Below are positions 11,222-46,355 of a stretch of 52,020 nt of DNA, one piece after another. The position numbers and the translations under genes are program-made. This DNA comes from Kocuria turfanensis (GTDB lineage: Bacteria; Actinomycetota; Actinomycetes; Actinomycetales; Micrococcaceae): the NCBI RefSeq assembly GCF_001580365.1, contig NZ_CP014484.1:1-52020 (forward strand), given 5' to 3'. Position 1 is the first letter of the stretch; each line of letters begins with the position of its first letter. Under the pieces are notes generated by a model that saw only the letters and a list, made by a program, of their open reading frames with translations, was not told the DNA's origin and made no database searches.

Positions 11222-12897
11222 ACACCAACGACCAGAACAAGAGTTTCATCGGCATCTTGATCCTGTTCACGGCCGTGATGGGCGCGGTGGGCCTGGTGCA
11301 CCTGGGGAACGTGCTGACCCCGGTGACCGGGGACCTGCCGTGGAACCCGTTTACCTTGGGCATCCAGCTGGCGACCGGGGCGGTGGACTGGCCGATGGCC
11401 GCGACTTTCCTGGTCGGTTTGGAGGTGGTGGCCGGGGTGGCGGCGCTGATGGTGTGGGGCACCCGGAGCCCGTCCAAGACCCAGGAAGCCGCCCGGCGGA
11501 TGAGCCCTCCGGGCCGGATCAACCCGGCGATGGCTGCTGCCCGCACCACTGAGGCCCACCGGTTGCACCCTGATGCCCAGGGCATTGGTCCGGGGCTGAC
11601 GATCGGGCTGGTGGGCAAGAACCCGGTCTATCAGGGCTGGCGGGAGTGCTCGGCCCATGTGTGGGGCACTGGGCGGGGTAAGACCACCTCACAGGTGATT
11701 CGGCACGCCACCGAGGCGCCGGGGGCGTTCCTGATGACGACGAACAAGGTGGATGGGGTGGCCGAGGTCCTGGCGGCCCGAACCACTACGGGGAGCACCG
11801 TGTGGCTGTTCGACCCCCAGCGCATTTGGCGCGACAGCGCCCGTCCGGCGATGATTTTCAACCTGTTGGCCACGGTCACCGATACGGTCTCGGCCGGGGA
11901 GGTCGCCTCAATCTTCGAGACCGCCTCGGCCTCCGGCTCGGCCGGCGGGAAGGGTGATCCGCAGTTCGACTCCCAGGGCCGCGATTACCTCTCCTGGTGC
12001 CTGCTGGGGGCGTCCAAGAGCGGCAAAACGCTCTCGGACGTGCTGGCCTGGGTGTCCTCCGCGAATTTCCTGGAACCGGCCCAAGCCCTGAAACAGGCCG
12101 GCCACACCGGACCGGCCGCCGCGGTGGAAGGTATGGGCCGTCAGCCAGAGGACACCCGGGGGTCGGTGGCTGCCAGTGCACAGCGCATGGCTTCCGCACT
12201 GGTCCACGATGAGCTGCTGGCCTGGACCACTCCGACCCCTGGGGTGCCGGTATTCAATCCGCACCGCTTCGTCACGAGCAAGGACACTCTGATTCTGCTC
12301 ACCCAGGATGCTGCCGGGTCTGGGGCGGCGTTCGTCTCGACCCTGGTCTACGCGGTGGTTACCGCCGCCCAGCACGCCGCCCGGCGTGCTGGAGGCAGGT
12401 TGCCGGTGCCGCTGGTGGCTGACCTCGATGAGGTCGGCAACGTGGTGAAACTCAAGCAGCTGCCCGAGTGGTACTCCTTCTTCGGGTCGATGGGCATTGT
12501 CGTCTCGGCCTACTTCCAGACCAAGGGCCAGGGCGTGGACATGCTGCAACGCACCGGGTGGGACACCCTGTGGTCGGCGGCCGCGGTGAAGGTCTACGGC
12601 GGTGGCTCCGATGACGCGGAGTTCCTGGAGTCGTTGCGCAAACTGATCGGCACCTATGACGCGAAGGTGCGCAGCACCTCCACCTCCCGCGGGGTGGCCT
12701 CCCGGTCGGTGCAGACCGTCCAGCGCGACATCATGCCAGTCTCCAAGCTCTCGGAGCTGCCGGCCGGGCACGCCTGGGTGAAGACCTCCACCGGCGGCGG
12801 CACGATCGTGCGCACCGTGCGGTGGTTTGAGGACAAGGACCTGAAAGCCCGGATCACACCGGTGCTAGAGCGGATCACAGAAGGACAGCGGCGATGA
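11218..12897 (+). CDS. VirD4/TraG-type coupling ATPase
   Basis: 559 residues. Two N-terminal transmembrane helices (about 10-32 and 62-82), then a RecA-like motor domain with Walker A GTGRGKTT (150-157) and Walker B VPLVADLDEVGN (near 395-406). The segment NKVDGVAEVL...VWLFDPQ is typical of type IV coupling proteins, which bring the relaxase-DNA complex to the channel and pump the strand. It should act with the MobF relaxase at 14974-19503. ATG overlaps the VirB4 stop and its own stop overlaps the DUF4913 gene. Confidence 0.93.
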   Translation: MNTNDQNKSFIGILILFTAVMGAVGLVHLGNVLTPVTGDLPWNPFTLGIQLATGAVDWPMAATFLVGLEVVAGVAALMVWGTRSPSKTQEAARRMSPPGRINPAMAAARTTEAHRLHPDAQGIGPGLTIGLVGKNPVYQGWRECSAHVWGTGRGKTTSQVIRHATEAPGAFLMTTNKVDGVAEVLAARTTTGSTVWLFDPQRIWRDSARPAMIFNLLATVTDTVSAGEVASIFETASASGSAGGKGDPQFDSQGRDYLSWCLLGASKSGKTLSDVLAWVSSANFLEPAQALKQAGHTGPAAAVEGMGRQPEDTRGSVAASAQRMASALVHDELLAWTTPTPGVPVFNPHRFVTSKDTLILLTQDAAGSGAAFVSTLVYAVVTAAQHAARRAGGRLPVPLVADLDEVGNVVKLKQLPEWYSFFGSMGIVVSAYFQTKGQGVDMLQRTGWDTLWSAAAVKVYGGGSDDAEFLESLRKLIGTYDAKVRSTSTSRGVASRSVQTVQRDIMPVSKLSELPAGHAWVKTSTGGGTIVRTVRWFEDKDLKARITPVLERITEGQRR

Positions 12898-14973: not shown

Positions 14974-17900
14974 CTAGAGGCTACGTCCGCCGTCACGGCG
15001 GGCGGTGTCGGCAGCTCGTCGGGCCGCTGCGGCCTTACTTTCCTGACGGCGAGCCTCTTGCTCGGGGCGTCGAGTGGCCGCGTATCGCTTGGCGAGCTCC
15101 GCTTGCTTCTGCTCTATCCCGGAGGTGTGCTGGCGGCGGTTGGAGTCGTTCTGGGCGTTCTGGGCGTTCTCGGACACGGCGGGTTCCTTCGGCTGAGTGG
15201 CCGGCGTGGGGGACGCCGGCGCATGGGGGGCAGCTGCATCGGTGGTCGAGGTGGCCTGTTGGGTTTGGGCCCGGTGCTGGGCCACTACGTGAGCGATCAG
15301 CTCCTCCCTGGTCAGCACCTTCCGGGGTTCCTCGGCTACCGGGGCCGTGGCAGCCTCGGTGACGGCCGCCTCCCGGGCCTGCGGGGCCGGCAACGGATCG
15401 GCGGCCTGCGCACGGGTGGCGCGCAGCGCCTCCACGGCCTCCTGGGCTTCGGCCGGGGTGGTGCGCACCCGCTCGGCCACGTGCGCCTCATCGGCGGCCT
15501 GGCGGATCTGCTCAGGCGTCTGGGGTGCCGCGGTGGTGAGCGCGGAGTGCTTGTGCAGCGCGGTGGCGCGTGTCATGAGTGCGGCCGCCACCGGGTCCTG
15601 GTGGTGGGTCTGGGGGATCAGTGCGGTTTCGTGGGCGGGGATGTTGTACCGGTTGCGGTACGCCTCGACCTCGGCGGCGACTTGGTGCCACTCGGCGGCC
15701 TTGGCGGGTTTGGTCGGCACCGGCCCCAACGCCGCAGCCCACTCCGGGCGGGTCTCGGCCAGCTCGGCACCGCGCACCATGACGCGCTCCTCCATGCGGG
15801 TGCGCAGCCGCACCAGCTGCTCCCGATATTGGGCCGGCACCTGCGGGTCGGTGATCAGCGCGGTGGGGGCCAGGTCCTCGCTCACCCGGCGCCGGTCCGC
15901 CACGGGGACCGGTGCCGGGGTCCTAGCGGCCACCGCGCGCACCTGTTGCTCGGCGGCGATCGCCTCACCGATCGACACGCCCGTGTCAGCGCGGGGGCGC
16001 TCCCCACGGGCGATCTGCTCCACCGCCGTCTGCTCCAGGGACAGCCCCGCCCGGCGCTCTTGCTCGGCGCCCATCGTGCGGGCGGTCCAGTCCAGGTGCA
16101 GCGATGTAGTGGACTCCCACAGCTCCGGGGGCAGGGCCAGGTTCTCGGCCTCGGCACTGGCCTTCGCCGCAGCCAGATGGGCCGAGGGCACGAGCGCGTA
16201 GGGGTGGGCCGCCCACTGTGGGTCCTCGACTGTGGGCTGGGTCTGGGCGGCACGCGCACGCTCGGCCAGCCGCTCCAGGTGCTCGTCGGTGAGGTTGCCC
16301 AGGGGCCGGCGGTCGGTGTTGTCGATGATCCGTTGGGCGTCCTCGATCTGGTGCTCCAGCCGCCACGCGAGCACCGCAGCGGGGTCCTCGGCCCCGCCAA
16401 AGCCGCGCTGATTGACTGCCTTCGCAAGCAACGCGGCCGGGTCCATGCCCTGCTGCTGGACAGTGTGCAGGTGCGTGGCCACCGCGCCCCACGCCTCGGC
16501 GCTGGTGAAGTCCGCGGCCTTGTCCGAGCCCAGGACCTCCACGGCCATCGTGCGGGTCTTGGCCGCCCAAGCGGCGTCAGCGGTCTCCCGGTAAACCTCG
16601 CCCAACGTGGCGACGTCGCCGGCGCGCATGGCCTCGGCGGCTACCGTTTCGTGGGCGTTCAGGTTCCGGTCGTAGGCGCCGGCGATGCTCTCCAGCACCT
16701 CGTCCCGGCTCTGACCCTCGCTCAGGGCGACGTAGAGCTGGTTGGTTTCGCGTCCGCGGGTGGCGGCCACGTAGGCGGCGGCCCGGGCGGTGGCGGAGTC
16801 CACGATGGCGTGGGCGGTGTCCACGGTCGCGCCCTGGGCGCGGTGCACGGTGGCCGCGTATCCGAGCTGGCCATGCTTGGCCAGGTACTCGGCGTCCAGG
16901 GTGATCTTGCCGCCGTGGCCGGTGTGGCGCAGCGTGGCGGTGTCGGCCCCGATCTTCTCAACGGTCCACACGTCGTTGTTCTTCACGAAGTCGCGGCCGC
17001 CGTTGAGCTGCAAGGTCCGGTCGTTGCGGCGGGTCACCACGACGTCCCCGGTATGCGCCGTGAGACCGTCGCGCAGCACCACGGATTCGCCGCTGGCATC
17101 GAGGGCTCCGGTGGCGATCCGTGCCGCCTGAGCCCGGGCATTCAGATCATTCACGGTGGTGTTGTCGGTGGCGATCAGCAGGGACCGCTTGCCCGCTTCG
17201 GTGTCCGTGATCCAGGCCCGCAGGGCGGTGTCGGTCATGGCCTCGGCGTCCCCGGCGACCACCCGGCGGTTCTCCAGATACCAAGCCCACGGGACGTCGG
17301 CCCCGGCCGCCGGCGACTCGCGCAGCGCCAGCGACGCGGCAGCCTCCCCCTCGGTGCGGAAGCGATGGACAGCTTCCAGGCGAGTCGCTCCCACCTCGTT
17401 GTCCAGCAGGCGCAGCGCCCCGCCGGAGCCGATCGCCCCGAGCTGTCGGTCATCGCCAATGGCGCGCACCACGGCCCCGTGCCGGGCCGCCACACCCACG
17501 AGCTCGGCCAGCTTCGGGGTGGTCACCATACCCACCTCATCGACGATCACCACGTCCCCGGCGTGCAGCTGAGCAGCCCCCGTGCGCCCGGTGCGGTGGG
17601 CAATCAAGAAGGCGTCAATCGTCGTGGCCTGCGCCCCAATGTCATCCGACATGACGGCAGCAGCAGCAGCCGTGGGGGCCAAGCCGACAACGTTGCCGCC
17701 GGTCGCCCGAACAGCATCAGCGGCCAGGGCCAGGCTCGTGGTCTTACCGGCACCGGCCGGTCCAATACCCAAGGAGAGCAGCTTCTCATCCGTGGCGAAG
17801 GCACGGGCCAGGGCCACCTGCCCCTCGCTGAGCGGGCCGGCATGGGCGGCCAGCACCTCGTCAAAGGTCTGGGTGGACACGGCCGGGATGACGGTGCGCT

Positions 17901-19503
17901 GGGCAGCGGCGAGCACCTGGTGCTCGGTCTCCAAGACCTCGCGGGAGGTGTACACCTGGGCGTCGGAGCGCACGAACTGGCTGGTGCCATCGGCACGGGT
18001 GAACTCCGCAAGGTGCGGCACATCGGCCTGCGGGGTGACGGACAGGCTGTGTGTTGTGGTGGCTTCCTTGACGACTTCGGCCACCAGCTCATCGGGCACG
18101 GTGCGCCCGATCATGGTCTCTTTCAGGTGCCGGCGGGTCTGGGCCTGGACGTGGTTCACACTCCAGGTCGCCCGCTTTTGGGACAGCTCGTGCACCACCA
18201 GACGGGCGTGCTCGGCCACGTCGATCTGGGTGGCATCGGGGCCGGTCGGCATCCCGGTGGCGGCGGCCCGCACGTGGGTTAGCAGGTCGTCTCCGACCGG
18301 CATCTGCATCTGCTGCCCGTACTCCTGGCCCCACTGCTCGACCAGCTCGGACAGGCGTCGGGCGGACTTCTTCGCCGGTCTCGACTCCAGGGTGGCTTGC
18401 TGGGCCAGGGCGATCTTCTGCTTGGCGTTGGGGGCGTAGCCGTGGCGGTCGGTGAACTCCGCGTGCAGCCGATCAAGGGTCCCGGCAATGTCAGCCCGGC
18501 GGGAGGAGGCGTGGTGGATGGCGTCCAGGTCCACCCCGGCAATCTCATAGATCGGCTCGTTCCCACCGGCCATGCGCGGGACGGCAGCGACACCCAGGGA
18601 CGCGGTGACCTTCTCCATCACCTTGGCGTTGTAGGTCTCCGAGGCGGCCACATTCGTCCGGTACAAGGTGCGCCCGTCCAGCGAGGACCACTTCCCATCC
18701 GCGCCCAAAACCTTGTTGGCGATCACCACGTGATCGTGCAGCTGAGGGTCCCCATTCCGGGAGTCGTAGTGACGGAACTGGGTGGCCACCAACCCGCCCT
18801 CGACGTCGATCTGCCGCACCCCGTTGCGCCCACGCCGGGTGTACGTCCCCTCCTGCTCCAGGAAGTTTAGGGTTTCCGCGATGGCCTCGTTGTGCGCCGT
18901 CTCGACCGCTTTGCGGGCCTCGTCGCCGCCCAGGGCCCAGAGCAAGGAGACGGACTTAGCGGGGGAGAACACCAGGTCATACCCGGCCACGGTCTGCTGC
19001 TTCGGGGTGGTCTGAGCCGTGATGAACCGGCCCAGCTCCTCCTTGTTCCGCACGTCGCGCCCGTGGGTCTCACGGAACAACTGGCCACCGACGCGACCGC
19101 GAATGGCTTGGCGTTCCTCGCGGGTTGGGGCCGTCCCGGTGGTGCGTTCGTGCCGGGCGATCTCCTCCTCCAGGCGCCGGGTCAGCTCCGTGTCAGCACT
19201 GGCATAGCGGTGGTACTTCTGCCCCAGGGCCACGTCGGCCTCGGTGCCGCCGGCGGCAAGGATACGGTCCGCGTCCGGGCGGATGCCCTCCCCGAACAGG
19301 GCCGCCATCTGCGCCTCGGTGACCTCCCCAGAAACCCCCAACAGGGCCTCTGAATGAGCGACCCACTGCCCCGGGGGCATGCCCTCGACGGTGTAGTAGT
19401 CGCCCAGCTCGCGGCCCTCCGCGCGCAGCTCATCAGCCGAGGCGACCTCGCTGGTGTAGTAGGCATAGCCGTCCCCAGCGCTGAGCTTGTGGACGGTCAT
19501 CAC
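14974..19503 (-). CDS. traA: MobF relaxase-helicase (TraA/TrwC type)
   Basis: 1509 residues. The N-terminal TrwC relaxase domain has tyrosines at 14, 16 and 17 (DGYAYYTSE), SPAKSVSLLWALG, and the metal-binding three-histidine set at about 245, 256 and 258 (FRHYDSR ... DPQLHDHVV). A RecD2/TraI-like helicase follows: Walker A GPAGAGKTT near 580-588, Walker B VVIVDEVGM near 651-659, and the terminal motif GYAATVHRAQGAT...AYVAATRGRETNQLYVAL. The last 400 residues are Ala/Glu-rich and coiled in character, with a basic tail. It should nick oriT, bind the 5' end and unwind the transferred strand. Its start (ATG 19503 or 19500) faces the oriT candidate. A long open frame on the opposite strand is only a GC-rich shadow. 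Confidence 0.95.
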   Translation of the reverse strand: MMTVHKLSAGDGYAYYTSEVASADELRAEGRELGDYYTVEGMPPGQWVAHSEALLGVSGEVTEAQMAALFGEGIRPDADRILAAGGTEADVALGQKYHRYASADTELTRRLEEEIARHERTTGTAPTREERQAIRGRVGGQLFRETHGRDVRNKEELGRFITAQTTPKQQTVAGYDLVFSPAKSVSLLWALGGDEARKAVETAHNEAIAETLNFLEQEGTYTRRGRNGVRQIDVEGGLVATQFRHYDSRNGDPQLHDHVVIANKVLGADGKWSSLDGRTLYRTNVAASETYNAKVMEKVTASLGVAAVPRMAGGNEPIYEIAGVDLDAIHHASSRRADIAGTLDRLHAEFTDRHGYAPNAKQKIALAQQATLESRPAKKSARRLSELVEQWGQEYGQQMQMPVGDDLLTHVRAAATGMPTGPDATQIDVAEHARLVVHELSQKRATWSVNHVQAQTRRHLKETMIGRTVPDELVAEVVKEATTTHSLSVTPQADVPHLAEFTRADGTSQFVRSDAQVYTSREVLETEHQVLAAAQRTVIPAVSTQTFDEVLAAHAGPLSEGQVALARAFATDEKLLSLGIGPAGAGKTTSLALAADAVRATGGNVVGLAPTAAAAAVMSDDIGAQATTIDAFLIAHRTGRTGAAQLHAGDVVIVDEVGMVTTPKLAELVGVAARHGAVVRAIGDDRQLGAIGSGGALRLLDNEVGATRLEAVHRFRTEGEAAASLALRESPAAGADVPWAWYLENRRVVAGDAEAMTDTALRAWITDTEAGKRSLLIATDNTTVNDLNARAQAARIATGALDASGESVVLRDGLTAHTGDVVVTRRNDRTLQLNGGRDFVKNNDVWTVEKIGADTATLRHTGHGGKITLDAEYLAKHGQLGYAATVHRAQGATVDTAHAIVDSATARAAAYVAATRGRETNQLYVALSEGQSRDEVLESIAGAYDRNLNAHETVAAEAMRAGDVATLGEVYRETADAAWAAKTRTMAVEVLGSDKAADFTSAEAWGAVATHLHTVQQQGMDPAALLAKAVNQRGFGGAEDPAAVLAWRLEHQIEDAQRIIDNTDRRPLGNLTDEHLERLAERARAAQTQPTVEDPQWAAHPYALVPSAHLAAAKASAEAENLALPPELWESTTSLHLDWTARTMGAEQERRAGLSLEQTAVEQIARGERPRADTGVSIGEAIAAEQQVRAVAARTPAPVPVADRRRVSEDLAPTALITDPQVPAQYREQLVRLRTRMEERVMVRGAELAETRPEWAAALGPVPTKPAKAAEWHQVAAEVEAYRNRYNIPAHETALIPQTHHQDPVAAALMTRATALHKHSALTTAAPQTPEQIRQAADEAHVAERVRTTPAEAQEAVEALRATRAQAADPLPAPQAREAAVTEAATAPVAEEPRKVLTREELIAHVVAQHRAQTQQATSTTDAAAPHAPASPTPATQPKEPAVSENAQNAQNDSNRRQHTSGIEQKQAELAKRYAATRRPEQEARRQESKAAAARRAADTARRDGGRSL

Positions 19504-33961: not shown

Positions 33962-34258
33962 GTGGGAGCCAAACGGAAGAGGTACACGCCCGCGTACCGG
34001 CGTGATGCCGCGCATCTGGTGATCGACACCGGGCGCCCGATCGTCCACGTGGCGAAGGAGATCGGTGTCGGAGAAGCTCTGCTGGGTCGTTGGGTCGCGA
34101 TCGAGAGGGCCAAGATGGACGACCCGCCCTCAGCACTGGATACCGATGAGCGGGCAGAGCTGGAGCGGTTGCGCCGTGAGGTGGCCGAGCTGCGGATGGA
34201 CCGGGAGTTCCTGAAAAAAGCAGCCGCCTTCTTCGCGACCGAGAACCAGAACCGGTGA
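33962..34258 (+). CDS. IS3-family transposase OrfA
   Basis: 98 residues from GTG 33962 (AGGGAGG at 33947-33953). HTH of IS3 OrfA: KRKRYTPAYRRDAAHLVIDTGRPIVHVAKEIGVGEALLGRWV, then a leucine-zipper-like helix ending LRRELRMDREFLKKAAAFF. The A6G run at 34214-34220 offers a site for -1 frameshifting to make the OrfAB fusion. Confidence 0.92.
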   Translation: MGAKRKRYTPAYRRDAAHLVIDTGRPIVHVAKEIGVGEALLGRWVAIERAKMDDPPSALDTDERAELERLRREVAELRMDREFLKKAAAFFATENQNR

Positions 34259-34260
34259 GG

Positions 34261-35151
34261 ATGTTCGAGCTCATCGACGCGGAGAAGGCCGACTACGAGA
34301 TCACCCGCATGGCCGAGCTGCTCGAGGTGTCCCGGTCGGGCTACTACGCCTGGCTGGCACGTCGCGAGGGGCCGCCGGGTCCCTCGGCTGTGCGACGGGC
34401 CCAGCTGGGCCAGAAGGTGCTGGCCGCCCACACGGCCTCCGACGGGGTCAACGGTGCGCCGCGGATCCTGGCCGACCTGCGCGCTGTCGGGGAGGTGGTC
34501 TCGCGCAAGACGGTCGCGAAACTCATGCGCGCCCACGGCATCGCCGGCATCAGCCCGGCCACCTGGCACCCGGTGACCACGGTCGCAGACGAGTCCGCGC
34601 ACACGATCCCCGATCTGGTGGAGCGCGACTTCGATCGCGGCCGCCTCGATGCGGTGTGGACCTCGGACATCACCTATTTGCCCACCGATCAGGGATGGCT
34701 GTACTTGTGTGCGGTCCGCGACGGCTGCTCGCGGCGGGTGCTGGGCTGGGCGGTCGATGACCACCTGCGCACTGAGCTGGTCGAGACCGCGCTGCGCCGG
34801 GCAGTGACCCTGCGCCGGTGTGACACCACCGGAGTGATCTTCCACGCCGATCGCGGCTGCCAGTACACCTCCGCCCGGCTGGCCGAGGTCGCCGCCGAGC
34901 TGGACGTCAGGATCTCGGTCGGGCGGACCGGGGTGTGCTGGGACAACGCGCAGATCGAATCGTTCTGGTCGACGTTGAAGACCGAGTACTACCACCGGCG
35001 GAGATTCACGACCAAGGCCGCCGCCAAGCGCGGCGTCGGCGCCTGGATCGAGGCTACCTACAACCGGACCCGACGGCACTCGTCACTGGGCATGCTCAGC
35101 CCGGTAGCCTTCGAGCACCAGCTCATGAACCCCGCGGCAGAAGCCGCATAA
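34261..35151 (+). CDS. IS3-family transposase OrfB, DDE integrase
   Basis: 296 residues from ATG 34261 (GTG 34255 overlaps the OrfA stop). HTH_21 region (ITRMAELLEVSRSGYYAWL), then an rve integrase core: VWTSDITYLPTDQGWLYL with the first Asp, VIFHADRGCQYTS with the second, and WDNAQIESFWSTLKTEYY with the Glu. Ends YNRTRRHSSLGMLSPVAFE. Intact, so probably functional through frameshifting. Confidence 0.93.
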   Translation: MFELIDAEKADYEITRMAELLEVSRSGYYAWLARREGPPGPSAVRRAQLGQKVLAAHTASDGVNGAPRILADLRAVGEVVSRKTVAKLMRAHGIAGISPATWHPVTTVADESAHTIPDLVERDFDRGRLDAVWTSDITYLPTDQGWLYLCAVRDGCSRRVLGWAVDDHLRTELVETALRRAVTLRRCDTTGVIFHADRGCQYTSARLAEVAAELDVRISVGRTGVCWDNAQIESFWSTLKTEYYHRRRFTTKAAAKRGVGAWIEATYNRTRRHSSLGMLSPVAFEHQLMNPAAEAA

Positions 35152-35230: not shown

Positions 35231-36541
35231 TTACAAGTCCTTCGCAAGAGGTTCGGTGAACAATTCGCGGTCGAGCCAGTTGCCGATGGTATCGATCAAA
35301 ATTTGATGTCCATGCGGAAGCGTCAAGGACATCAGATTAAGTGGAAGCGCGGTCAGCTCAATGTCTTTGCTACCTAGGGCCGAGGAGACCCGCCAGACTG
35401 TGGGATCACGCTCTAGCGCTACAGGATAGGTCAGGGAGATGCGTTGGCATCCGAGGACGTGGCCCGCCGTAAGCACCTGATACGTGTCAGGGGCCTTCGG
35501 CCGGGAGCCGAAACGCTTGTACTTCGAATCAGTGACCGCAACGGTGATTCCTTGGCTGTCACGGAACACAACATCCGGCGTGGTCTGCAGCAGCGAGCCT
35601 TGCCCCGAGATCACAGTGCCGAACTTGTTCGCAGTCTTGCTGACCCGTTCGCCGCGATTGCTGGCCGCACGCCTGCACAACCAGTAGATGTAGTTTTCGT
35701 AGATCACATCAGAGTTCCACAGGAAGCCGGACAGAGCGTGCTCTCCACGTGCGTGATGTACGCCGGCGCCTTCGAGAAGTAGGGTTCCAACAACTCGTGC
35801 CGTCTCCAGAGCCTGGTGTTGAGTCCCTAGGGAGATCCTCTGCGCTTCGAAAAGGTGGGGAGGCAACCTTCCAACGTGGGAGAGGCTACTTGCAATGTCG
35901 CGTACCGCGCGAGCACGCCCGGGCGCTTTGACTGTTGCTGCGAGGCACTCGGCGGTCCAACGCAATAGTCGGGCCAGCGGGGTGTCATCGGTCAAATGGT
36001 CTGCGACGTAGGGAACCTCCCACGGGCGCGCAATCCAGTCGCCCACGCGCGACATGTCTAAACTTCCTCGGAGCAGCGGACCAGAGGCTCGCTCCGTCAG
36101 ATAACCGCGCGGCACGCCCCGGGCAGCGCCTTTGGCGTACGAAGCAAGGAACATCTCGGCGAGCAGGTCCGGCATGGAGAGTGAAGCGACTTCGTGGGCG
36201 GTCGTCAGGTTGTCGTCGACGTGCCCACCCTCGACGACGGTGAGAATCCGCCACAGCACTGTCTGCCAACTGCCATCGGCGGTGTTCAGGAATTTGGGCG
36301 CGATTTCGATATCGGTGTGGCCGACTCGCACCACCCCGGTTATTGCTTCCGCTCGCATCTGCACGAGTCCATCGCCAAGGTCTTCGACCCGGATTGGGTC
36401 TCCGGACAGGCCTAACGCACGTGTCCAGCGTCTGTTTGCCTCAGCTAGCGCGTGAAAATCGATCTCCCTGGCATGGAGAACCGCTGGTGCCCCGTACTCC
36501 TGGAGTTGAATGCGCGGCGGCGCGGCTAGCGTGTCAGCCAC
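35231..36541 (-). CDS. mcrC: McrC-type nuclease subunit
   Basis: 436 residues. An N-terminal beta-rich part, a middle region (VASLSMPDLLAEMFLASYAKGAARGVPRGYLTERASGPLLRGSLDMSR) typical of McrC, and a C-terminal PD-(D/E)XK nuclease with TTPDVVF at about 320-326 and VTDSKYKR at 336-343. McrC stimulates the GTPase of McrB and cuts DNA. Last gene of the five-gene operon, with its start overlapping the end of mcrB by 16 bases. Confidence 0.92.
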   Translation of the reverse strand: MADTLAAPPRIQLQEYGAPAVLHAREIDFHALAEANRRWTRALGLSGDPIRVEDLGDGLVQMRAEAITGVVRVGHTDIEIAPKFLNTADGSWQTVLWRILTVVEGGHVDDNLTTAHEVASLSMPDLLAEMFLASYAKGAARGVPRGYLTERASGPLLRGSLDMSRVGDWIARPWEVPYVADHLTDDTPLARLLRWTAECLAATVKAPGRARAVRDIASSLSHVGRLPPHLFEAQRISLGTQHQALETARVVGTLLLEGAGVHHARGEHALSGFLWNSDVIYENYIYWLCRRAASNRGERVSKTANKFGTVISGQGSLLQTTPDVVFRDSQGITVAVTDSKYKRFGSRPKAPDTYQVLTAGHVLGCQRISLTYPVALERDPTVWRVSSALGSKDIELTALPLNLMSLTLPHGHQILIDTIGNWLDRELFTEPLAKDL

Positions 36542-37701
36542 CTGAACGACCGTTTGATGACGTCGATGTGGAGTTCACTCGTCCGCACGGGGGCAAGCGT
36601 GCGGGCATTGACAGTCGCACTTTTGGATGTCCGCAGCTTCCATGCATACTCGCCATCCGTTGGGGCGGTGGCGACGTTCAATAGGTCCATTAGCTGATCC
36701 GGCCGACCGGAGTAGCGGTCTTCCAATTGAGGGAACAGCACGTCGTCCCAGGTCTTTGCGAGGCTTCGCCACGCGTCCTTCGCGTCGACTGGCTCCTCAA
36801 CGCCGTCTGAATTCACCTTGGTCGCTAGAACCGGAGTCAAAAGACCGTGGCCGAGTTCGAACTCAGGGCCAAGGTCCGACGCAATGACAACATTGAGTCG
36901 GTCGAGGATAAGGTAGCCGGTCTGGAATGGCCCGAGCGACTCCCAGTTGTCCTCGGTCGGTGTCGGAATCGCCGTTATGTCAAGATTCCAGTGCTCGGCC
37001 AGAACATCGAGGGCGGGACGCATTTCGATCCGGTCGAATCGCCGCGCAAGGGCGCTGTCGATGGGTACGGCTGCACGGTCGACACTATTCATCGTCGAAA
37101 CAATATAGACGTGCTTGGGGAAGGTGAATCCCTCAGGAATCATGGCTGTATTGCCACCCGGTCGGCAAACCTTCTCGCTTTGACCGTTCTCATAGGTCAG
37201 CTGTCGCAGCGGGAGTGGGAGCGGAACAGTGCCGCCGTCGCGGTAGTCAAAGTCCAGGAACGTCATGAACTCCCCGAAGATACGAGCAGCGTTTCCACGA
37301 TTTATCTCGTCGATGAAAATGACGACCGACTTGTACTCCGACTTGGGATCAGATAGTTCCAGTGCCGCGTCAAGAAAAACGCCAGCCCACGGTTGGAGCC
37401 GAGTGCCGTCCCTGGTGATTTCCGGCCTAAGTCCTAGCACGAAATCCTCGTATCCATACGACTGATGGAACGTCGTCCACACGACTTTGATGGGTTGCGG
37501 GATGGTGATCTCTTGCTCGGGCCGGCTGAACTCAGTATCTTCGGGGTCGAATCGGATGCCTCGTTGGCTCTCTGGCGGGGTGTTCAACGCATCGAACAAC
37601 TCGCTGATGAGTCGAGTTTTACCCGTAGCTGGGGGCCCGTAGAGGAGCGCGTTCCTGCCCGCGCTCCAGGACGAGAGAATGTCCTCGATCTTGTCAGCCA
37701 T
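36526..37701 (-). CDS. mcrB: McrB-type AAA+ GTPase subunit
   Basis: 391 residues from ATG 37701; an earlier start at 37764 would overlap the preceding gene. Consists of the AAA+ motor only: Walker A YGPPATGKT (21-29), Walker B VVIFIDEINRGNAARIFGEF, and sensor-like IVSTMNSVDRAAVPIDSALARRFDRIEM, which carries the MNxxD signature of McrB GTPases. The N-terminal DNA-reading domain of classical McrB is missing; the separate 185-residue protein encoded just upstream may serve instead. Motor for translocation in a McrBC-type restriction complex. Confidence 0.94.
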   Translation of the reverse strand: MADKIEDILSSWSAGRNALLYGPPATGKTRLISELFDALNTPPESQRGIRFDPEDTEFSRPEQEITIPQPIKVVWTTFHQSYGYEDFVLGLRPEITRDGTRLQPWAGVFLDAALELSDPKSEYKSVVIFIDEINRGNAARIFGEFMTFLDFDYRDGGTVPLPLPLRQLTYENGQSEKVCRPGGNTAMIPEGFTFPKHVYIVSTMNSVDRAAVPIDSALARRFDRIEMRPALDVLAEHWNLDITAIPTPTEDNWESLGPFQTGYLILDRLNVVIASDLGPEFELGHGLLTPVLATKVNSDGVEEPVDAKDAWRSLAKTWDDVLFPQLEDRYSGRPDQLMDLLNVATAPTDGEYAWKLRTSKSATVNARTLAPVRTSELHIDVIKRSFRWLTR

Positions 37702-37709
37702 GTCACACC

Positions 37710-38267
37710 TCAGTCCGCATCGATTACGCCGCCTACAGTCCGGCCCTGGGTGTAGAGATCCCACGCAGGGTTGTTGGGTTTCATGTTCGCAGGACGTAAA
37801 CCCTTGGTGAACCCTGCGTAGTAGTCACCTTCCACTGTTTTGAAGATGTATATGCGGAGCCCACCCTCAGGGAAGTACGGCAACGCTTCTTCCTTATTGC
37901 GGACACCATCAGGGGCAAGCGGGAACCCCCGGGCAGCTGTCCAGGCCGGATGTCGCTGCGAGTTAGGTTGCTGGCGGTTCTGGCGCGCGATGCGCATGCG
38001 TCCGCCGGCCTTACGTTGGAACTCAATAGGAGCAGACACGCCTGACGTATCGGCGACTCCCGCCTGGATGGTGATGGTCGGTAGGGCTTCGACGTCAGTG
38101 CCCGTCGCGTCGAGGAAGTCGAGGGTCGCAGGAACCATCGAGCTGGGGATTTCGATGTAGAGAGATCCACCCCCGCCCTCGATTCGATGGTAACGCTCAA
38201 TGTTGTAGAACTCGCCGGGTTGGACGTTGCGCCACCAGATGCGATCGACGTTGAGTTTTTGGGCCAC
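37710..38267 (-). CDS. Unknown protein, candidate recognition subunit of the McrBC cassette
   Basis: 185 residues, not a family I recognise. WWRNVQPGEFYNIERYHRIEGGGGSLYIEIPSSM looks like a strand-rich fold, and GRMRIARQNRQQPNSQRHPAWTAARGFP is basic enough to bind DNA. The C-terminus (GGLRIYIFKTVEGDYYAGFTKGLRP) recalls EVE/restriction-linked beta modules. It lies 2 bases after the adenine methylase stop and 8 bases before mcrB, so it is firmly part of the operon. A target-recognition role is inferred because McrB here lacks its own. Confidence 0.8.
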   Translation of the reverse strand: MAQKLNVDRIWWRNVQPGEFYNIERYHRIEGGGGSLYIEIPSSMVPATLDFLDATGTDVEALPTITIQAGVADTSGVSAPIEFQRKAGGRMRIARQNRQQPNSQRHPAWTAARGFPLAPDGVRNKEEALPYFPEGGLRIYIFKTVEGDYYAGFTKGLRPANMKPNNPAWDLYTQGRTVGGVIDAD

Positions 38268-38269
38268 GA

Positions 38270-39292
38270 TCAGATTGCCTCGACGTGGTAGAGATGCTCC
38301 AACACTGATCCACCCTTTACTCGGTCGTTACTGCGGAATCGGACATGGGGTTGCTCGTGAACGGTGACCTTGCCGAAGTCGCTCAGGATTGACATCAGCT
38401 CGTCCTCATGGACCTGGCCGTCCTCACTGTAGGAGATAAACACGTGCGGAACGTTGAGGCGCTCCAGCGTCTCGCGAAATGCCTTGCCTGCACTGCGCCG
38501 GTAACAGAAATCGGACGCCTGGTCGGTCCAGGGACGTAGCCCGCCATCGCCCGCTGCAACCGGCTCGTCGCCCTGAGCCAATGTCTCCAGGACGTGATAG
38601 TTCCCCGCGTACTGCCGCTTGGTATACGGGGGGTCTAGGTACACCGCGTCTGTGGTGAGCGTCGTTGCGAGGTCCTCAACAGCGCTCTGGGTGACGGTGT
38701 GATTCCCCAAAGTGTCCTCGAAGACGATGGGCTCGAAGGCCAGTGGTCGAAGAGACGGCGCGGAGAGCGTAGACCTGAAATAGCCGTATGTCCCGGTGAT
38801 GTTGGCAACCTTGTTGGTCGCGAGAATCAGATGGTGAAGCAGCACGCTGTGCTCGATTTCGGTCAGGATCCCAGCCGAGCGCAACGTACGGATGCCCTCC
38901 CGTATGCCGTCGATGTGGGCCGCATTCCTGGCGGAGAAATAGAGCCGGGGGGCGCGTCCGTTGTCGGGCTGACCAGACTCGCCGAACTCGCGGAAGAAGT
39001 AACCCTCGCGAGGCGCGGCCGACCGCATCCAGTTCAAAGCCTCGTCATAGCCGCCTAGGGCCGCGAAGGCTGGGGGCTGCTTGGCGAGCAGGCGAGTTCG
39101 GGCGTGGACTACAGGGAATGTCAGGGCATCTGCGGCGGTGACTGAGTACCCGGCTCGTGCTAGGGCAATCGAGATAGCTGCAGTACCGCACATGGGGTCT
39201 GCAATCGAAGAGCCCGGAGGAAGAACCCGTGCAATCTCGCTGACGATCCACTCGGACAACCGTGTCTTATTACCTAGGTAGCGGTACGACAT
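38270..39292 (-). CDS. N6-adenine DNA methyltransferase, D12-like
   Basis: 340 residues from ATG 39292. MSYRYLGNKTRLSEWI is the KxxGNK-type start of alpha-class methylases; AdoMet pocket SSIADPMCGTAAISIALA (about 30-45); catalytic DAVYLDPPYTKRQYAGNYH near 208-226. The final part (VFISYSEDGQVHEDEL, HVRFRSNDR) is that of enzymes paired with restriction operons. Second gene of the cassette. Confidence 0.92.
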   Translation of the reverse strand: MSYRYLGNKTRLSEWIVSEIARVLPPGSSIADPMCGTAAISIALARAGYSVTAADALTFPVVHARTRLLAKQPPAFAALGGYDEALNWMRSAAPREGYFFREFGESGQPDNGRAPRLYFSARNAAHIDGIREGIRTLRSAGILTEIEHSVLLHHLILATNKVANITGTYGYFRSTLSAPSLRPLAFEPIVFEDTLGNHTVTQSAVEDLATTLTTDAVYLDPPYTKRQYAGNYHVLETLAQGDEPVAAGDGGLRPWTDQASDFCYRRSAGKAFRETLERLNVPHVFISYSEDGQVHEDELMSILSDFGKVTVHEQPHVRFRSNDRVKGGSVLEHLYHVEAI

Positions 39293-39326
39293 GCACACCT
39301 CTCTGTCTCCTCATGCGTCCGATCAG

Positions 39327-40361
39327 TCACAGCCGCTTGTTCCTGATAACGATCCGGTCGTACATGCGTCGGTACGTCCCGTCACCATTTGGAAGATAGA
39401 AACGGGGTCCGCCCTGCTGGTAGGTGCCTTTGTTGGCAACTTCCGACATTGGCCTACCTAAGGTCTTACTCGAGCCGATAATTTCGAACTGCTCTGGGTT
39501 GTACTTGTCGAGAAAGGTGATAGGCACGCCCATGGGGCCGTCATAGTCGACGGGAATATCCATTGTCTTACTAACGTCAATGGCGTCAAAGTTGGCGTAC
39601 CTCGGATACTCCTCGGGATTATATGATTTATGGAGGATCAGGTCTTTGTGTCGTTCGGGATAGTCCAAGTTGGTGAACCAGCGGACTCCCTTAACCCGGA
39701 TGAACTTGTTACCGTTTTCGTCGATTCGTGAACCAACGGCAGTTATTGGATAGTCGTCAGGCACACCAAACTCACGATCTCCACTGCGAATACTTGGGCC
39801 GTACCACACCTGGTCGTTCTGAAATAGCGGAAAAATTTCTTTGTATGTCAAAGCGTTCATGTTCCCGATAATAAGAAACTGCTTTTTGTACTCAACCAAC
39901 TGGGCGACATACTCACGAAACAGTGAGAATGGCGGGTTGGTAACCACAATATCTGCCTGCTTCAGCAAATTTATGCTCTCGGGGCTGCGGAAGTCCCCGT
40001 CTCCCATGAGCGGCTTGACCCCAATCTTCCTGGGGTCAGAAGCGTCATTCCCGCTCCCTCCACCGCCATACTCAAGATATACGGCCTGGTCAGCGGAATT
40101 CCGACTAAAAAGATCAGCACTCTGATTTTTATAACAAGTAGTAATCAGCTTTTTGAGTCCGAGTTCGTCAAAATTCGAGGAGAAGTAGCGAAAGAAGTTG
40201 GATATCCGCGGGTCGTCGCAATTGCAATAGACGACCTTGTCCTTGAAATGCCCCGTGTAGTGCTTTAGTTCTCGCTCGATGTCGACAAGCTGGGTGTAGA
40301 ACTCATCTTTTTTCGCTTTCCGAGCCTCCAGAAAGTCGCGGTTCCGTGTAGCTATCTTCAT
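39327..40361 (-). CDS. N6-adenine methyltransferase of the M.EcoRI family
   Basis: 344 residues from ATG 40361, SD AGGAG directly upstream. Family features: KAKKDEFYTQLVDIERELKHY at the start, CNCDDPRISNFFRYF, and catalytic VVTNPPFSLFREYVAQLVEY (NPPF). M.EcoRI modifies the second A of GAATTC; this homologue may have any specificity. First gene of the five-gene operon, so modification is made before restriction. Visibly lower GC than its neighbours, pointing to a different origin from the mcrBC part. Confidence 0.93.
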   Translation of the reverse strand: MKIATRNRDFLEARKAKKDEFYTQLVDIERELKHYTGHFKDKVVYCNCDDPRISNFFRYFSSNFDELGLKKLITTCYKNQSADLFSRNSADQAVYLEYGGGGSGNDASDPRKIGVKPLMGDGDFRSPESINLLKQADIVVTNPPFSLFREYVAQLVEYKKQFLIIGNMNALTYKEIFPLFQNDQVWYGPSIRSGDREFGVPDDYPITAVGSRIDENGNKFIRVKGVRWFTNLDYPERHKDLILHKSYNPEEYPRYANFDAIDVSKTMDIPVDYDGPMGVPITFLDKYNPEQFEIIGSSKTLGRPMSEVANKGTYQQGGPRFYLPNGDGTYRRMYDRIVIRNKRL

Positions 40362-40622: not shown

Positions 40623-40973
40623 CTATCGGTTGATTTGTTGGGCGTAGGCGCGCACCGCGTTCTCGATCACTGCCCGAGCGGTACCGTCATGCTCGGTGAG
40701 CTCCTCGATCAGATCGGAGACATCCTGAGCCACCCGAACCCCCAGCTGGATCGTGGGTTCCCGGCGCGGCCGACCCCGCCCACGCTTCGGCGCGGCCACC
40801 GCGGGCTGCTCCGCCGGGACCGCCTGTACCGGCGGCGTCGACGCCATCGGTGTCGCGGGCTGGGGTGTGGCGGGGGCCGCAGGTGTGTAGTCGACCGGGT
40901 CGATGTGCTCATCCGGGGCCGGTCGGGGCCGGCGGCGGGCTAGCGAGGCGGGACGCTCGGGCTTGTCGGTCAT
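40623..40973 (-). CDS. ParB-like small partition partner
   Basis: 116 residues from ATG 40973, which overlaps the parA stop. N-terminal half is Pro/Ala-rich and disordered; the C-terminal 55 residues (KRGRGRPRREPTIQLGVRVAQDVSDLIEELTEHDGTARAVIENAVRAYAQ) have the basic stretch, strand and two helices of a ribbon-helix-helix/CopG-like DNA-binding module. Such small RHH proteins encoded after type Ib ParA bind centromere repeats; here the repeats at 41772-41850 are the likely target. Confidence 0.8.
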   Translation of the reverse strand: MTDKPERPASLARRRPRPAPDEHIDPVDYTPAAPATPQPATPMASTPPVQAVPAEQPAVAAPKRGRGRPRREPTIQLGVRVAQDVSDLIEELTEHDGTARAVIENAVRAYAQQINR

Positions 40974-41740
40974 CGCAGCACCTTCTTCGCAATCGCGGTG
41001 TAGGCATCCAGCACCCGGGAGCCCTTGCGGTACTGCCCGTACCACTCCCCCGAGATCCGCACCTCCTGGACGATCGCCCGGTCCGGGATCAACGGCTCCA
41101 GGAACAACCCCGTGGCCCGAAGCTCCTCGAGGCTGGCCACGGCCGCCCGGCTCATGATCGTCTCCTTCACCCCACCGACGACGATGCCGGCCTCGGTGAG
41201 GGTGTCCGGGGCGCCGAGCTGCTGGCGGTGCCGACGGAATTGGGCGACCGTGCGCCGGGCCCCTTCCACCCCGTCGATGCCGTCGCTGGTGGCGGTGGCG
41301 GCGTAGACCACGGTGTCCGCGGCGTTCAACGCCGACAGCGTCAGCGGGCCGCCCTGCCGGTTGGGGCAGTCAATGACCACCACATCCGCTGCCAGACCGG
41401 TCAGTGAGATCTTCAGCCGCAGCTCCGCATGATCAGCCCGATCCGCCTCCCGGTTGGAGACGTTGCGGGCCGAGGGAATCACCCGCAGGTTTGGGTGCCA
41501 CCCACTGGGCACCGCGAGATCCTCGGCCCAGCCTTCAGGATTCTCATCACCCAAGATCGCACCGACGTGCATTCCTTCCGCCGAGGGCTCCACCCCGAAC
41601 CACTTGGTGGAAGCCGCACGGGGGTCGAGATCAACGAGTACTACACGGCGCCCCTCGGCAGCAGCGACCATTGCTAAGGAGACAGCGGTGGTGGTCTTGG
41701 TGACCCCACCAGATTCGCTGTAGACCATCAGGGTTTGCAT
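40970..41740 (-). CDS. parA: ParA-family partition ATPase
   Basis: 256 residues, ATG 41740. Deviant Walker A YSESGGVTKTTT (8-19, usually KGGVGKTT; first Lys is replaced by Ser), Walker A-prime VVLVDLDPRAAST, and Walker B VVVIDCPNRQGG. Lack of an N-terminal HTH makes it a type Ib ParA. The changed first lysine, the residue that acts across the dimer, is notable. With the small gene and upstream repeats it forms a par locus. Confidence 0.92.
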   Translation of the reverse strand: MQTLMVYSESGGVTKTTTAVSLAMVAAAEGRRVVLVDLDPRAASTKWFGVEPSAEGMHVGAILGDENPEGWAEDLAVPSGWHPNLRVIPSARNVSNREADRADHAELRLKISLTGLAADVVVIDCPNRQGGPLTLSALNAADTVVYAATATSDGIDGVEGARRTVAQFRRHRQQLGAPDTLTEAGIVVGGVKETIMSRAAVASLEELRATGLFLEPLIPDRAIVQEVRISGEWYGQYRKGSRVLDAYTAIAKKVLR

Positions 41741-43297: not shown

Positions 43298-44182
43298 TCA
43301 CCTCGCCAATCTGTCGCTGACCATGGAAATTGGGGTTGCTCGAGCAGCTTCCCTGGCCGCTCTTCGCGCTGCCTTTCGGATCCTCTTATGGTGCTCCTCG
43401 CTGAGCTCAAGCCGAGGGATAGCCCCGTTATCCCGGGCCACTCGGTCCAAGTAGTTCTGGCGGCCCACGTTGCCTTCGAGCATGCACACCGCCTGCGCCA
43501 ACCAAATCATCGACGTCAGCAGTTGATGCGGCCACGTTAGATCCACGCCGACGTCGGGCTTCACTACCCGAATTGCTCCACCCGTCTCCAGCGGCATGCG
43601 GACCCACTGATGCAGGATTCCCGCCGTAGGGTGCGTCTCTTCTGACATCAGTCGATAGTGTGCATAAAAATCCTTGCTAGGCGTTAGTTCCCGACATCGG
43701 TCTTTGAAATTGGCGCCCCAGTGTGTGTGGTCATTTGCCAGGTTCGCCGGATCATGCTGCAGCTGGGCTCTTATTTGCTCCGCCCACTGAGTCCATGGTT
43801 CTTCGCCCATGCTGATGAACTCTTTAGCGGTCTTACTCCGTTCTTCACCAGAGTGCTGGGTCAGCGCCTTCCACCCGTCTGGCACTAAGGCCACCCACTG
43901 GGCTGTGACAGCCTGCTCGAATACAGCACGCACCAGCGGCACCAAGGCCGTCTCCGGGACACGCCTCACTGCGGATAGGTATGCACGCGCCTGCTCAAAG
44001 CCCTGTACAGCGAACCCGGCAACGTATAGGTATTGCCGGATATCCTCTGCTTCTACGCGAGGGTTGCGGGCCTGCCACCTGTCCCAGATGCGCAGAAGTT
44101 CCCTTAATGGCGCTAGATCGCGGGCTGCCACGACCATGCCCTCCCGGTAATTTGATCCACCCTGCGGCTGCTCGGTGCTCAT
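43298..44182 (-). CDS. DUF5677-like helical protein
   Basis: 294 residues, ATG 44182 overlapping the stop of the upstream gene. Almost all helix, with ARAYLSAVRRVPETALVPLVRAVFEQAVTAQWVAL, then KDFYAHYRLMSEETHPTAGILHQW and a highly basic tail (HHKRIRKAARRAAREAARAT). This matches what I know of DUF5677/HEPN-like proteins, some of which carry an RxxxxH RNase motif; the R..S.ETHP segment (YRLMSEETHP) is the closest candidate here. Function not proven. Paired with the membrane protein encoded before it. Confidence 0.75.
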   Translation of the reverse strand: MSTEQPQGGSNYREGMVVAARDLAPLRELLRIWDRWQARNPRVEAEDIRQYLYVAGFAVQGFEQARAYLSAVRRVPETALVPLVRAVFEQAVTAQWVALVPDGWKALTQHSGEERSKTAKEFISMGEEPWTQWAEQIRAQLQHDPANLANDHTHWGANFKDRCRELTPSKDFYAHYRLMSEETHPTAGILHQWVRMPLETGGAIRVVKPDVGVDLTWPHQLLTSMIWLAQAVCMLEGNVGRQNYLDRVARDNGAIPRLELSEEHHKRIRKAARRAAREAARATPISMVSDRLAR

Positions 44183-45036
44183 TCTGTGTCCCGTGTTTTG
44201 TTCACAACTCGTGCGATGGCAATTCGCTGCATCTCCCGCATCTGTTGCTCGTGCTGTTCGTCGATAACGGCTTGTTCGCTGTCCTCGACTGCAACGACAT
44301 CTTGCTTTCCAAATCCTTGACTCGAACAGTGGAGACCGATGGACACTTCTTCTACGAATTGGCTACGCCGTTCCCTGGGGCAGTACGGTACCCATTTGTC
44401 TCGCTTGGGGGACCACTTTTCGTACTTACCGTTCCATAGGTCCTGCGCAGCTTTGCCTGGAGATGCGACATGAACCCTGAATGCACGGTCTCGCAATCCC
44501 CTTCGGGGCCAGCCTGGCACTGCCCAGGTCAAGCCAACCATGACGTCCCTAGCGGTCCACGGTGCCGTGTGCGCAGTCATCTCCGCATCTGCTGGCCCCC
44601 CAGGGCGTTGCAAAACAACGATCATTGGTGGGTCCCCGGGCCCCCAGGACTCACGAGCCTTGGATAGCTGCACAACCTCGACACCATCTTTTGGTCCCCA
44701 AACCCGGAGCGACACGCCATATCTGGCCCCGGGTCCTACCGCGTGAATTCCGATGACCAGCTGTGTCGAGATTGTCGTCCCCGACGAGCGCCGCCCATTC
44801 GGACTGACTGATACCGGCAAGGGAACCTCTACCGGCCGAGCGGTAATGCGGAAATCAAGACCTTGAAGAGTCGCTTGCTGGCGATCGTGCAGCAGGGTGA
44901 CCAGCGCAACTACTAGCGCCACCAGTGCCACTGTGAGCGCTCCCCACGACGACACAATGTCCTCTGTGTCGGTCAGGAACCTTCCAGCGTGTTGAAGAAC
45001 ATCTCCCACGATTCCAAGCCACTTTTCGATTGTCAT
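44179..45036 (-). CDS. Membrane-anchored hypothetical protein
   Basis: 285 residues from ATG 45036 (in-frame GTG and TTG lie one and two codons upstream). One transmembrane helix (about 33-50, GALTVALVALVVALVTLL), then a beta-rich domain (LDFRITARPVEVPLPVSVS ... GVSLRVWGPKDGVEVV) and a long C-terminal helix with many Gln/Glu/Arg. No family recognised. Coupled by ATGA to the helical protein, so the two probably act together; a membrane-tethered sensor with a helical effector is one possible reading. Confidence 0.72.
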   Translation of the reverse strand: MTIEKWLGIVGDVLQHAGRFLTDTEDIVSSWGALTVALVALVVALVTLLHDRQQATLQGLDFRITARPVEVPLPVSVSPNGRRSSGTTISTQLVIGIHAVGPGARYGVSLRVWGPKDGVEVVQLSKARESWGPGDPPMIVVLQRPGGPADAEMTAHTAPWTARDVMVGLTWAVPGWPRRGLRDRAFRVHVASPGKAAQDLWNGKYEKWSPKRDKWVPYCPRERRSQFVEEVSIGLHCSSQGFGKQDVVAVEDSEQAVIDEQHEQQMREMQRIAIARVVNKTRDTE

Positions 45037-45095
45037 CACCAAGTCATTTTCCCAGCAGGTCTATGCATTATGCGGCCACGACTCCTCAACTGCGC

Positions 45096-46355
45096 TCAAC
45101 TGACGCTGCGAAGCTCGCTCCAGTCGGTGGTGTATCTGGGGGAGAGGTCGGCTTGGTGGTTGGCCCAGGGGGCGGGGGAGTGGGTGCCGATTCGGCCCAG
45201 GGCGAGGGTGCCGGTGCCGAAGCGGCGGTTGACCGCATCGATGAGCTCCCCGATCTGGGCGGGTTGCTCGAGCACTCCGGGCAGAACAGGCACGGCCCCC
45301 TCGAGGGCGAGGTCCATGCAGAGAATGCCGGCCCGCATGTAGGACATCCCGTGCATGAGCTTGGGCACCAGCGCCGACCGGGCGGCGGCCACCAGCGGGC
45401 CCGGCTCATTGGTGGGCACGGCCAGGCGCACGTGCGCGGAGACATTGTGCGCGGGCCCTGGCCGGTGCGGGGAGGTACTGGCAAAGACGGTGAAGCGTCC
45501 GGCCACCTCACCTTCCTTCCGCAGCCGGCGGGAGGCGCGTTGGGCGAACTCGGCTACGGCTTGGCCCACGATCTCCGGGTCCCAGATCGGGTCCGGGAAG
45601 GAGCGGGAGACTAGGATCTGGGCCTTGGTGGCCACCTCGTCCTCCACCGGGATGGCGGGGAACCCGTTGAGCTCCAGCACGGTGCGCATCTGCACCACGG
45701 AGAACTTGTGCCGGATGGCCACCGGGTCGGCATCACGCAAATCGGCGGTGGTCTCGATGCCCATCGCCTCCAGGCGTTTCGCCAGCCTCCCGGCGATTCC
45801 CCAGACCTCGGTGACGGGCAGGGCTTCCATGAGCCGGTCCCAGTACCCCTCCGGGGCCTGGTCCCAGTGCACCACCCCACCGGTGGCGGGCAGCTTTTTA
45901 GCGCATTCTGTGGCGATTTTCGCCCTCGTCTTGGAGCTGGCGATCCCGATGCTCACCGGCAGGCCGATGTTGCGGGCCACGGTGGCTTTGAGCCGGCGGG
46001 CCCACCGCACCTGCTCCTCGGGTGTGCCGTGCGGGGGGAGGAGGAAGCACTCGTCGATGGAGTACACCTCCTGCCCCCGTGCGTGGCGGGCCAGCAGCAG
46101 CATCACCCGCTCGGACAGGTCGGCGTAGAGCTGGTAGTTGGAGGAACGCTTCTCCAGCCGCCACCGCTTCGCGTCGGCGCGCAGCTGGAACCAGGGATCG
46201 CCCATCTTGATCCCCAGGGCCTTGGCCTCAGCGCTGCGGGCGACGACACAGCCGTCGTTGTTGGAGAGCACCACCAGTGGCTTGCCCGCCAGGGAGGGCT
46301 CGAAGAGGGCCTCGCAGGAGGCGTAGAAGTTGTTCACGTCGACCAGGGCGATCAC
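45096..46355 (-). CDS. umuC: Y-family DNA polymerase, UmuC type
   Basis: 419 residues. Starts [22 protein letters not shown] (catalytic Asp and steric FYASCE), followed by [18 protein letters not shown], active-site YSIDECFL near 104-111, and the thumb helix-hairpin [27 protein letters not shown] little-finger region and UmuC-type tail follow. Performs lesion bypass with UmuD-prime. Fourteen bases separate it from umuD, so they form an SOS operon. Confidence 0.95.

Follow-up and report, generated by a model that had tools for sequence, protein, structure and literature searches.

What does a nuclease of the McrBC type do when it is encoded beside two adenine methylases? The question is raised by a five-gene cassette at positions 35231-40361 of a 52,020-nucleotide stretch of DNA from Kocuria turfanensis (contig NZ_CP014484.1, positions 1 to 52,020; the window hereafter). 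A first-pass annotation, made from the letters alone, had suggested a nuclease driven by guanosine triphosphate (GTP) that cuts DNA lacking N6-methyladenine (m6A), and had added that it knew of no described example. On the evidence of the sequences and predicted structures, we consider it highly likely that the cassette is a Type II-like restriction-modification system using the McrBC engine. The m6A-protected, GTP-driven nuclease remains the best reading and is strengthened by a B3-fold DNA reader predicted in the third gene product, U185, but the suggestion that it is without a described example does not stand in principle.

Architecture of the cassette

All five genes of the first-pass annotation were recovered in the order it gave, on the minus strand within 35231-40361, with starts read directly from the sequence as ATG or GTG. 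The first, M1 (39327-40361; 344 residues), is an M.EcoRI-family N6-adenine methyltransferase (Pfam EcoRI_methylase PF13651, E 2.1e-139) with the motif NPPF, and the second, M2 (38270-39292; 340 residues), is a D12-class N6-adenine methyltransferase (MethyltransfD12 PF02086, E 2.1e-22) with the motif DPPY. U185 (37710-38267; 185 residues, GTG start) is the predicted B3-fold DNA-reading subunit. It is followed by an McrB-like AAA+ GTPase motor (36526-37701; AAA_5, E 3.5e-9), which has 391 residues from its ATG or 412 if an upstream GTG is used, the longer form being the one on which the family scans were run. Last comes McrC (35231-36541; 436 residues; Pfam McrBC PF10117, E 2.7e-30), the PD-(D/E)XK nuclease subunit, whose gene overlaps the end of mcrB. 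From M2 to McrC, successive genes overlap or lie at most 8 bases apart, a spacing that points to an operon.

The engine genes are as first described. The window's McrB lacks an N-terminal reader domain because only 21 residues lie between its ATG and Walker A, and Pfam detects no modified-base reader, a Type IV feature, at that N-terminus; McrC carries both PDVVF and DSKYK. The host's contig C1 encodes a second McrC (PF10117; L002, G000:C1:2498899-2499840) accompanied by an McrB homologue that is 29% identical to the McrB of the cassette.

Conservation and co-inheritance

Scanning species genomes with an alignment of U185 yielded 13 relative loci. The neighbourhood check on the 185-residue protein proposed in the first-pass annotation gave a uniform answer, with M1, M2, U185, McrB and McrC encoded in identical order at 13/13 loci; having been found through U185, these loci tell us about the companions of U185 and not about those of M1. 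With one gene complement and one order at every locus, the grouping is not a chance one. The loci span four phyla, with seven in Actinomycetota, three in Pseudomonadota, two in Bacteroidota and one in Thermodesulfobacteriota. When the window is counted with its 13 relatives, the linked pair of M1 and M2 is present in 14/14 cassettes, as are an McrB-like GTPase with Walker A, Walker B and NxxD motifs and an McrC-like PD...(D/E)XK nuclease. All 14 retain NPPF, DPPY, GPPATGKT (Walker A), DE[IV]N, MNSVDR, PDVVF and D[SA]KYK, and narrower patterns that disallow the variants DE[IV]N and D[SA]KYK find Walker B in 11/14 and DSKYK in 8/14. Pairwise distances are correlated from gene to gene at 0.80-0.94 across the 14 cassettes, whose sequences are kin, such that the points are not independent. 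Each join from M2 through U185 and McrB to McrC falls between -19 and +11 bases, and the M1-M2 join between -23 and +48.

The cassette is rare, the window's own genome being the sole carrier among 396 genomes of its phylum and likewise among 59 relatives. Among plasmid records, 282 have an McrB-like match and 95 an M2-like match, nine of the latter having been viewed in context. Carriage by phages was considered and rejected: a search of 50,697 phage records for U185 found nothing, and no relative is encoded in any of 22 pattern-matched viral-contig stretches. Judged by its sequences and models, the cassette is complete, with five intact genes, conserved catalytic motifs and transmission of its genes together.

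U185 as a predicted reader of unmodified DNA

U185 matches nothing in Pfam, NCBIfam or PADLOC at E<=1. A large protein collection gave 448 candidate homologues, 300 of them at E<=0.001. Its predicted fold resembles B3 domains from plants as well as the recognition domains of the restriction enzymes BfiI, EcoRII, UbaLAI and H. pylori LlaJI.R1, and VIA-align of the model returns B3 in 24/24 listed entries. We therefore predict from the model that U185 is a B3-fold DNA reader. The B3 domains of BfiI, EcoRII and UbaLAI read unmodified sites, and LlaJI recognises an unmodified asymmetric site via its B3 domain (PMC12707154).

This prediction bears on two other explanations of the locus. According to the first, the cassette belongs to the Type IV McrBC systems, which cut methylated DNA, and the two methylases are passengers or serve some other purpose. 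The assignment of McrC to the PF10117 McrBC family and the NxxD type of the McrB motif both fit such a system, and a census of McrBC, which treats the family as Type IV, describes branches that have predicted methyltransferases in their vicinity (PMC11090510). Methylases that made the nuclease's own target would endanger the host, however, yet both are kept in 13/13 relatives, and the reader is predicted to be B3 as in LlaJI rather than SRA/DUF3578, YTH or EVE. With a reader fold that reads unmodified sites and methylases kept in every relative fetched, we regard Type IV activity as very unlikely. The same census defines the CoCoNuT branch of McrBC by an NxD motif in the GTPase (PMC11090510), and membership of that branch is ruled out by the sequence NSVD, an NxxD motif, in 14/14 cassettes.

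The second explanation, a mixed system in which one methylase protects while the other makes a mark that stimulates the nuclease, had been offered by the first-pass annotation as its alternative, and we found no support for it. The anatomy of the cassette is compatible with such a system, and the existence of native mixed systems is posed as a question in PMC3874153, but among the five proteins no modified-base reader was found and the sole reader is B3-like. We therefore think a mixed system extremely improbable and retain the reading of a nuclease that cuts unmodified DNA.

The separate history of M1

M1 has a history of its own outside the cassette. At 49% identity it resembles a methylase encoded next to an annotated R.EcoRI on a plasmid of E. 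coli. No R.EcoRI stands next to M1 (tblastn of the R.EcoRI of locus L031 against the window gave no match at E 1e-3), and the window holds no R.EcoRI or DUF262 homologue. M1 homologues occur in 80 plasmid records, and the 40 listed include neither of the two records that match U185. Of ten M1-homologue plasmid loci, eight encode a DUF262 (GmrSD_N) protein immediately downstream, in one case cut short by the record end; of the other two, one has R.EcoRI and one a more distant DUF262 stretch. Matches to McrB or McrC are absent from all ten. An EcoRI-family methylase is present in 11/396 genomes of the phylum, our own included. Within the 2-4 kilobases viewed around the methylase in the ten others, a DUF262-type neighbour was found in seven (one weak) and none in three, and in none of the ten were other cassette genes found beside it. 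The first-pass annotation had stated that methylase homologues mostly unlinked to McrBC would refute its reading; this describes the M1 family overall but not the clade to which M1 itself belongs.

In a midpoint-rooted tree of 31 methylases, the 14 cassette M1s form one group (95/97; 93% of bootstrap trees), with one of them, L015, on a long branch, and the next branches outside the group are DUF262-linked methylases of Gordonia and Sulfitobacter. Because the cassette M1s form a single clade nested among DUF262-linked methylases, M1 was probably recruited once from a two-gene system, and this origin counts against taking a single asymmetric site for granted as the target of both M1 and M2. Phyla are intermixed within the clade, which indicates transfer.

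Given this history, M1 could instead be independent, either an orphan or the remnant of a system of the EcoRI or GmrSD_N type, stacked beside a working unit of M2, reader and McrBC. The company kept by its closest non-cassette relatives, GmrSD_N proteins and not McrBC, would fit, as would the M1-M2 spacing, which varies the most of the joins. M1 and its motif are nevertheless present in 14/14 cassettes, in one clade and with Spearman correlations of 0.80-0.91 with the other genes, a parallel family described below likewise retains two N6 methylases, and the window contains no R.EcoRI or DUF262 homologue. We consider stacked systems unlikely; the explanation overlaps with a five-gene restriction-modification system in that the unit would still be Type II-like, and the odds we attach to the readings do not sum to one.

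The partnership of M1 relatives with GmrSD_N proteins is an observation in its own right. The two-gene unit, with an EcoRI-family methylase first and a GmrSD_N (DUF262) protein after it, is widespread (L018:5986-8216, L019:5995-8147, L020:5995-8122, L030, L032-L034), and one of these loci, L032, has two EcoRI-family methylases in a row. The Gordonia DUF262 protein, the sole one scanned, ends in a C-terminal HNH domain. From its gene content the unit looks like a Type II-like restriction system; we know of no description of one, and made no search for it.

Readers, methylases and possibly exchangeable engines

M2 leads to different relatives. It is 43-44% identical to the D12 methylases of what we call reader-HNH systems, in which one protein joins a U185-related reader domain to a C-terminal HNH domain, and its gene adjoins those of an M2 homologue and a second N6 methylase. 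These systems, from Roseobacter and Paracoccus plasmids, share with the cassette a homologous reader domain, a homologous D12 methylase and a second N6 methylase; they differ in that the reader is fused to the HNH domain and the second methylase has a TaqI-type specificity domain, and no McrB or McrC match was found in the stretches of these loci that were searched. A parallel family follows the same plan as the cassette, with a D12 methylase, an Eco57I-like N6 methylase, a protein of 187-198 residues, an AAA protein and McrC. For a relative of the third protein in this family, VIA-align likewise predicts B3. Sequence homology of the Citrobacter-type small protein to U185 or to the HNH-fused family was not significant (hhalign, E 0.48 and 0.06), and VIA-align places both its model and that of U185 with B3 domains.

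These comparisons give signs of a reader that keeps its M2 partner through exchanges of the nuclease and of the second methylase. One possibility, to which we give about an even chance, is that the B3 protein is a stand-alone specificity subunit like the S subunit of Type I systems, which moves together with M2, serves different engines (McrBC in trans or an HNH nuclease fused to it) and is paired with different second adenine methylases (EcoRI-, TaqI- or Eco57I-type). If so, McrBC would be a programmable motor-nuclease steered by a swappable reader, and the methyltransferase-linked branch of McrBC that has been reported as surprising would be explained.

The family that joins a B3-like reader to an McrA-like HNH domain (L017:7995-9113, L022:3993-5126, L016:7995-9113; alignment A2) has 339 matches at E<=0.001, not all of which were checked for both domains. 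Some sources name its members 5-methylcytosine-specific restriction protein A. In the three loci viewed, the neighbours are two adenine methylases (in pieces in L016), and the name is probably misleading.

Proposed mechanism and target site

We suggest that M1 and M2 methylate host DNA at adenines, most likely placing one m6A on each strand of an asymmetric site. U185 would bind this site in its unmethylated state, and rings of McrB would be loaded there and hydrolyse GTP as a motor. McrC, with which McrB works, would cut after engagement of the complex. For the motor and the nuclease we rely on established McrBC studies (PMC7680126, PMC12707154). We infer the binding of McrB by U185, the blocking by m6A, the asymmetry of the site and the cleavage of unmodified DNA.

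Several observations weigh against this proposal or parts of it. McrC matches the Pfam family McrBC (PF10117) and no other at E<=1. Foldseek TM-scores between the U185 model and its restriction-enzyme matches are low (0.35-0.45), and the U185 sequence profile finds no solved relative (best E 0.64). For the model from the parallel family, Foldseek alone gives no match at E<=0.001 and ranks potassium-channel chains above the first B3 domain. The nearest non-cassette relatives of M1 appear to be the sole methylases of two-gene systems, which fits a palindromic M1 site and weakens the idea that each methylase serves one strand. Finally, GAATTC is not depleted in the window, with 6 seen against 4.3 expected.

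Neither M1 nor M2 has a solved relative detectable by sequence. Besides GAATTC, the sequences GATC (348 seen vs 334 expected), GGATG (59 vs 60) and GAAT (80.5 vs 96) were counted in the window, and we propose no site.

The host plasmid

The contig is probably a conjugative plasmid, to judge from its genes for a TrwC relaxase (14974-19503), a TraG/TraD-type coupling protein (11218-12897), a Y-family polymerase (45096-46355), transposases and a resolvase. Its two ends have 35 identical bases in common. The best plasmid matches to 10000-34000 are from Kocuria rosea and cover up to 40% of it. The cassette is flanked on one side by a plus-strand transposase with integrase-core domains (34255-35151), which we read as IS3-type, and on the other by a ParA-type gene (40970-41740). 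Two overlapping genes at 43298-45042, the first matching DUF5677 and, weakly, a HEPN domain, are possibly a second defence or toxin-antitoxin unit.

Comparison with known systems

M.LlaI holds two FokI-like domains in one chain. The LlaI enzyme is called a type II A methylase in the title of Hill et al. 1991, as given in reference lists. LlaI, from the Lactococcus plasmid pTR2030, resembles the cassette in that its methylase gene shares an operon with three genes for restriction, one of which encodes a short McrB-like protein (PMC1459862). It reportedly recognises an unmodified sequence and needs two methylases (PMC3874153), and by 2008 LlaI, BsuMI and LlaJI had been set apart as McrBC relatives that cleave unmethylated DNA and have a methylase pair (PMC2614495). 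LlaIB (337 residues) and BsuMIB (343 residues) are short McrB-like proteins of three-gene restriction cassettes (PMC1459862). With these precedents, and with LlaI using an adenine methylase, an adenine-protected McrBC was already described in principle; the first-pass claim of novelty fails to that extent and is lowered accordingly. In the open-access literature we found no description of the exact combination, nor of the pairing of an EcoRI-type with a D12 methylase, of a free-standing B3 subunit with McrBC, or of the exchange of McrBC for an HNH nuclease around one reader and methylase.

The plan of LlaI, an adenine-type methylase with three restriction genes, is that of the cassette, as judged from papers and from a Lactococcus plasmid locus (L026:5998-11276) that we infer to be LlaI-like. 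This locus encodes a 337-residue AAA protein and a LlaJI-family nuclease, with abiA nearby; its methylase gene is in pieces, including D12 pieces similar to M2, and the three restriction-type genes that follow are annotated as open frames. Its first restriction protein, of 252 residues, has no BLASTP match to U185 at E 0.01 and a single chance-level match in the structure library. Its nuclease, annotated as LlaJI family, has no Pfam match at E<=0.1, whereas McrC of the cassette belongs to PF10117, and the genes annotated in the stretch include no EcoRI-family methylase.

The methylases of BsuMI and LlaJI are of the C5-cytosine type, whereas both methylases of the cassette belong to N6-adenine families. 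The Type IV McrBC of E. coli has a like engine of GTPase and PD-(D/E)XK nuclease, and is not known to have a cognate methylase. Its McrB carries a methylcytosine reader (PMC7680126), whereas the McrB of the cassette is without an N-terminal domain and has two adenine methylases as fixed partners. BsuMI of Bacillus subtilis has the short McrB-like BsuMIB in its three-gene restriction cassette and is grouped with the systems that have a methylase pair (PMC1459862, PMC2614495). In LlaJI the B3 domain lies within the McrB-like R1 (585 residues; PMC1459862, PMC7680126), whereas in the cassette a separate gene encodes the reader of 185 residues.

In a 2024 census, the association of McrBC with predicted DNA methyltransferases was described as surprising, given that the family is Type IV, and was deferred to later work (PMC11090510). 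For one branch of McrBC the cassette suggests an answer, in which a reader of unmodified DNA stands beside McrB and adenine methylases serve as protection. With a reader that stands free, the recruitment of a GTPase motor by a B3 domain becomes open to experiment, as does the question whether McrBC could be steered by exchanging one small subunit.

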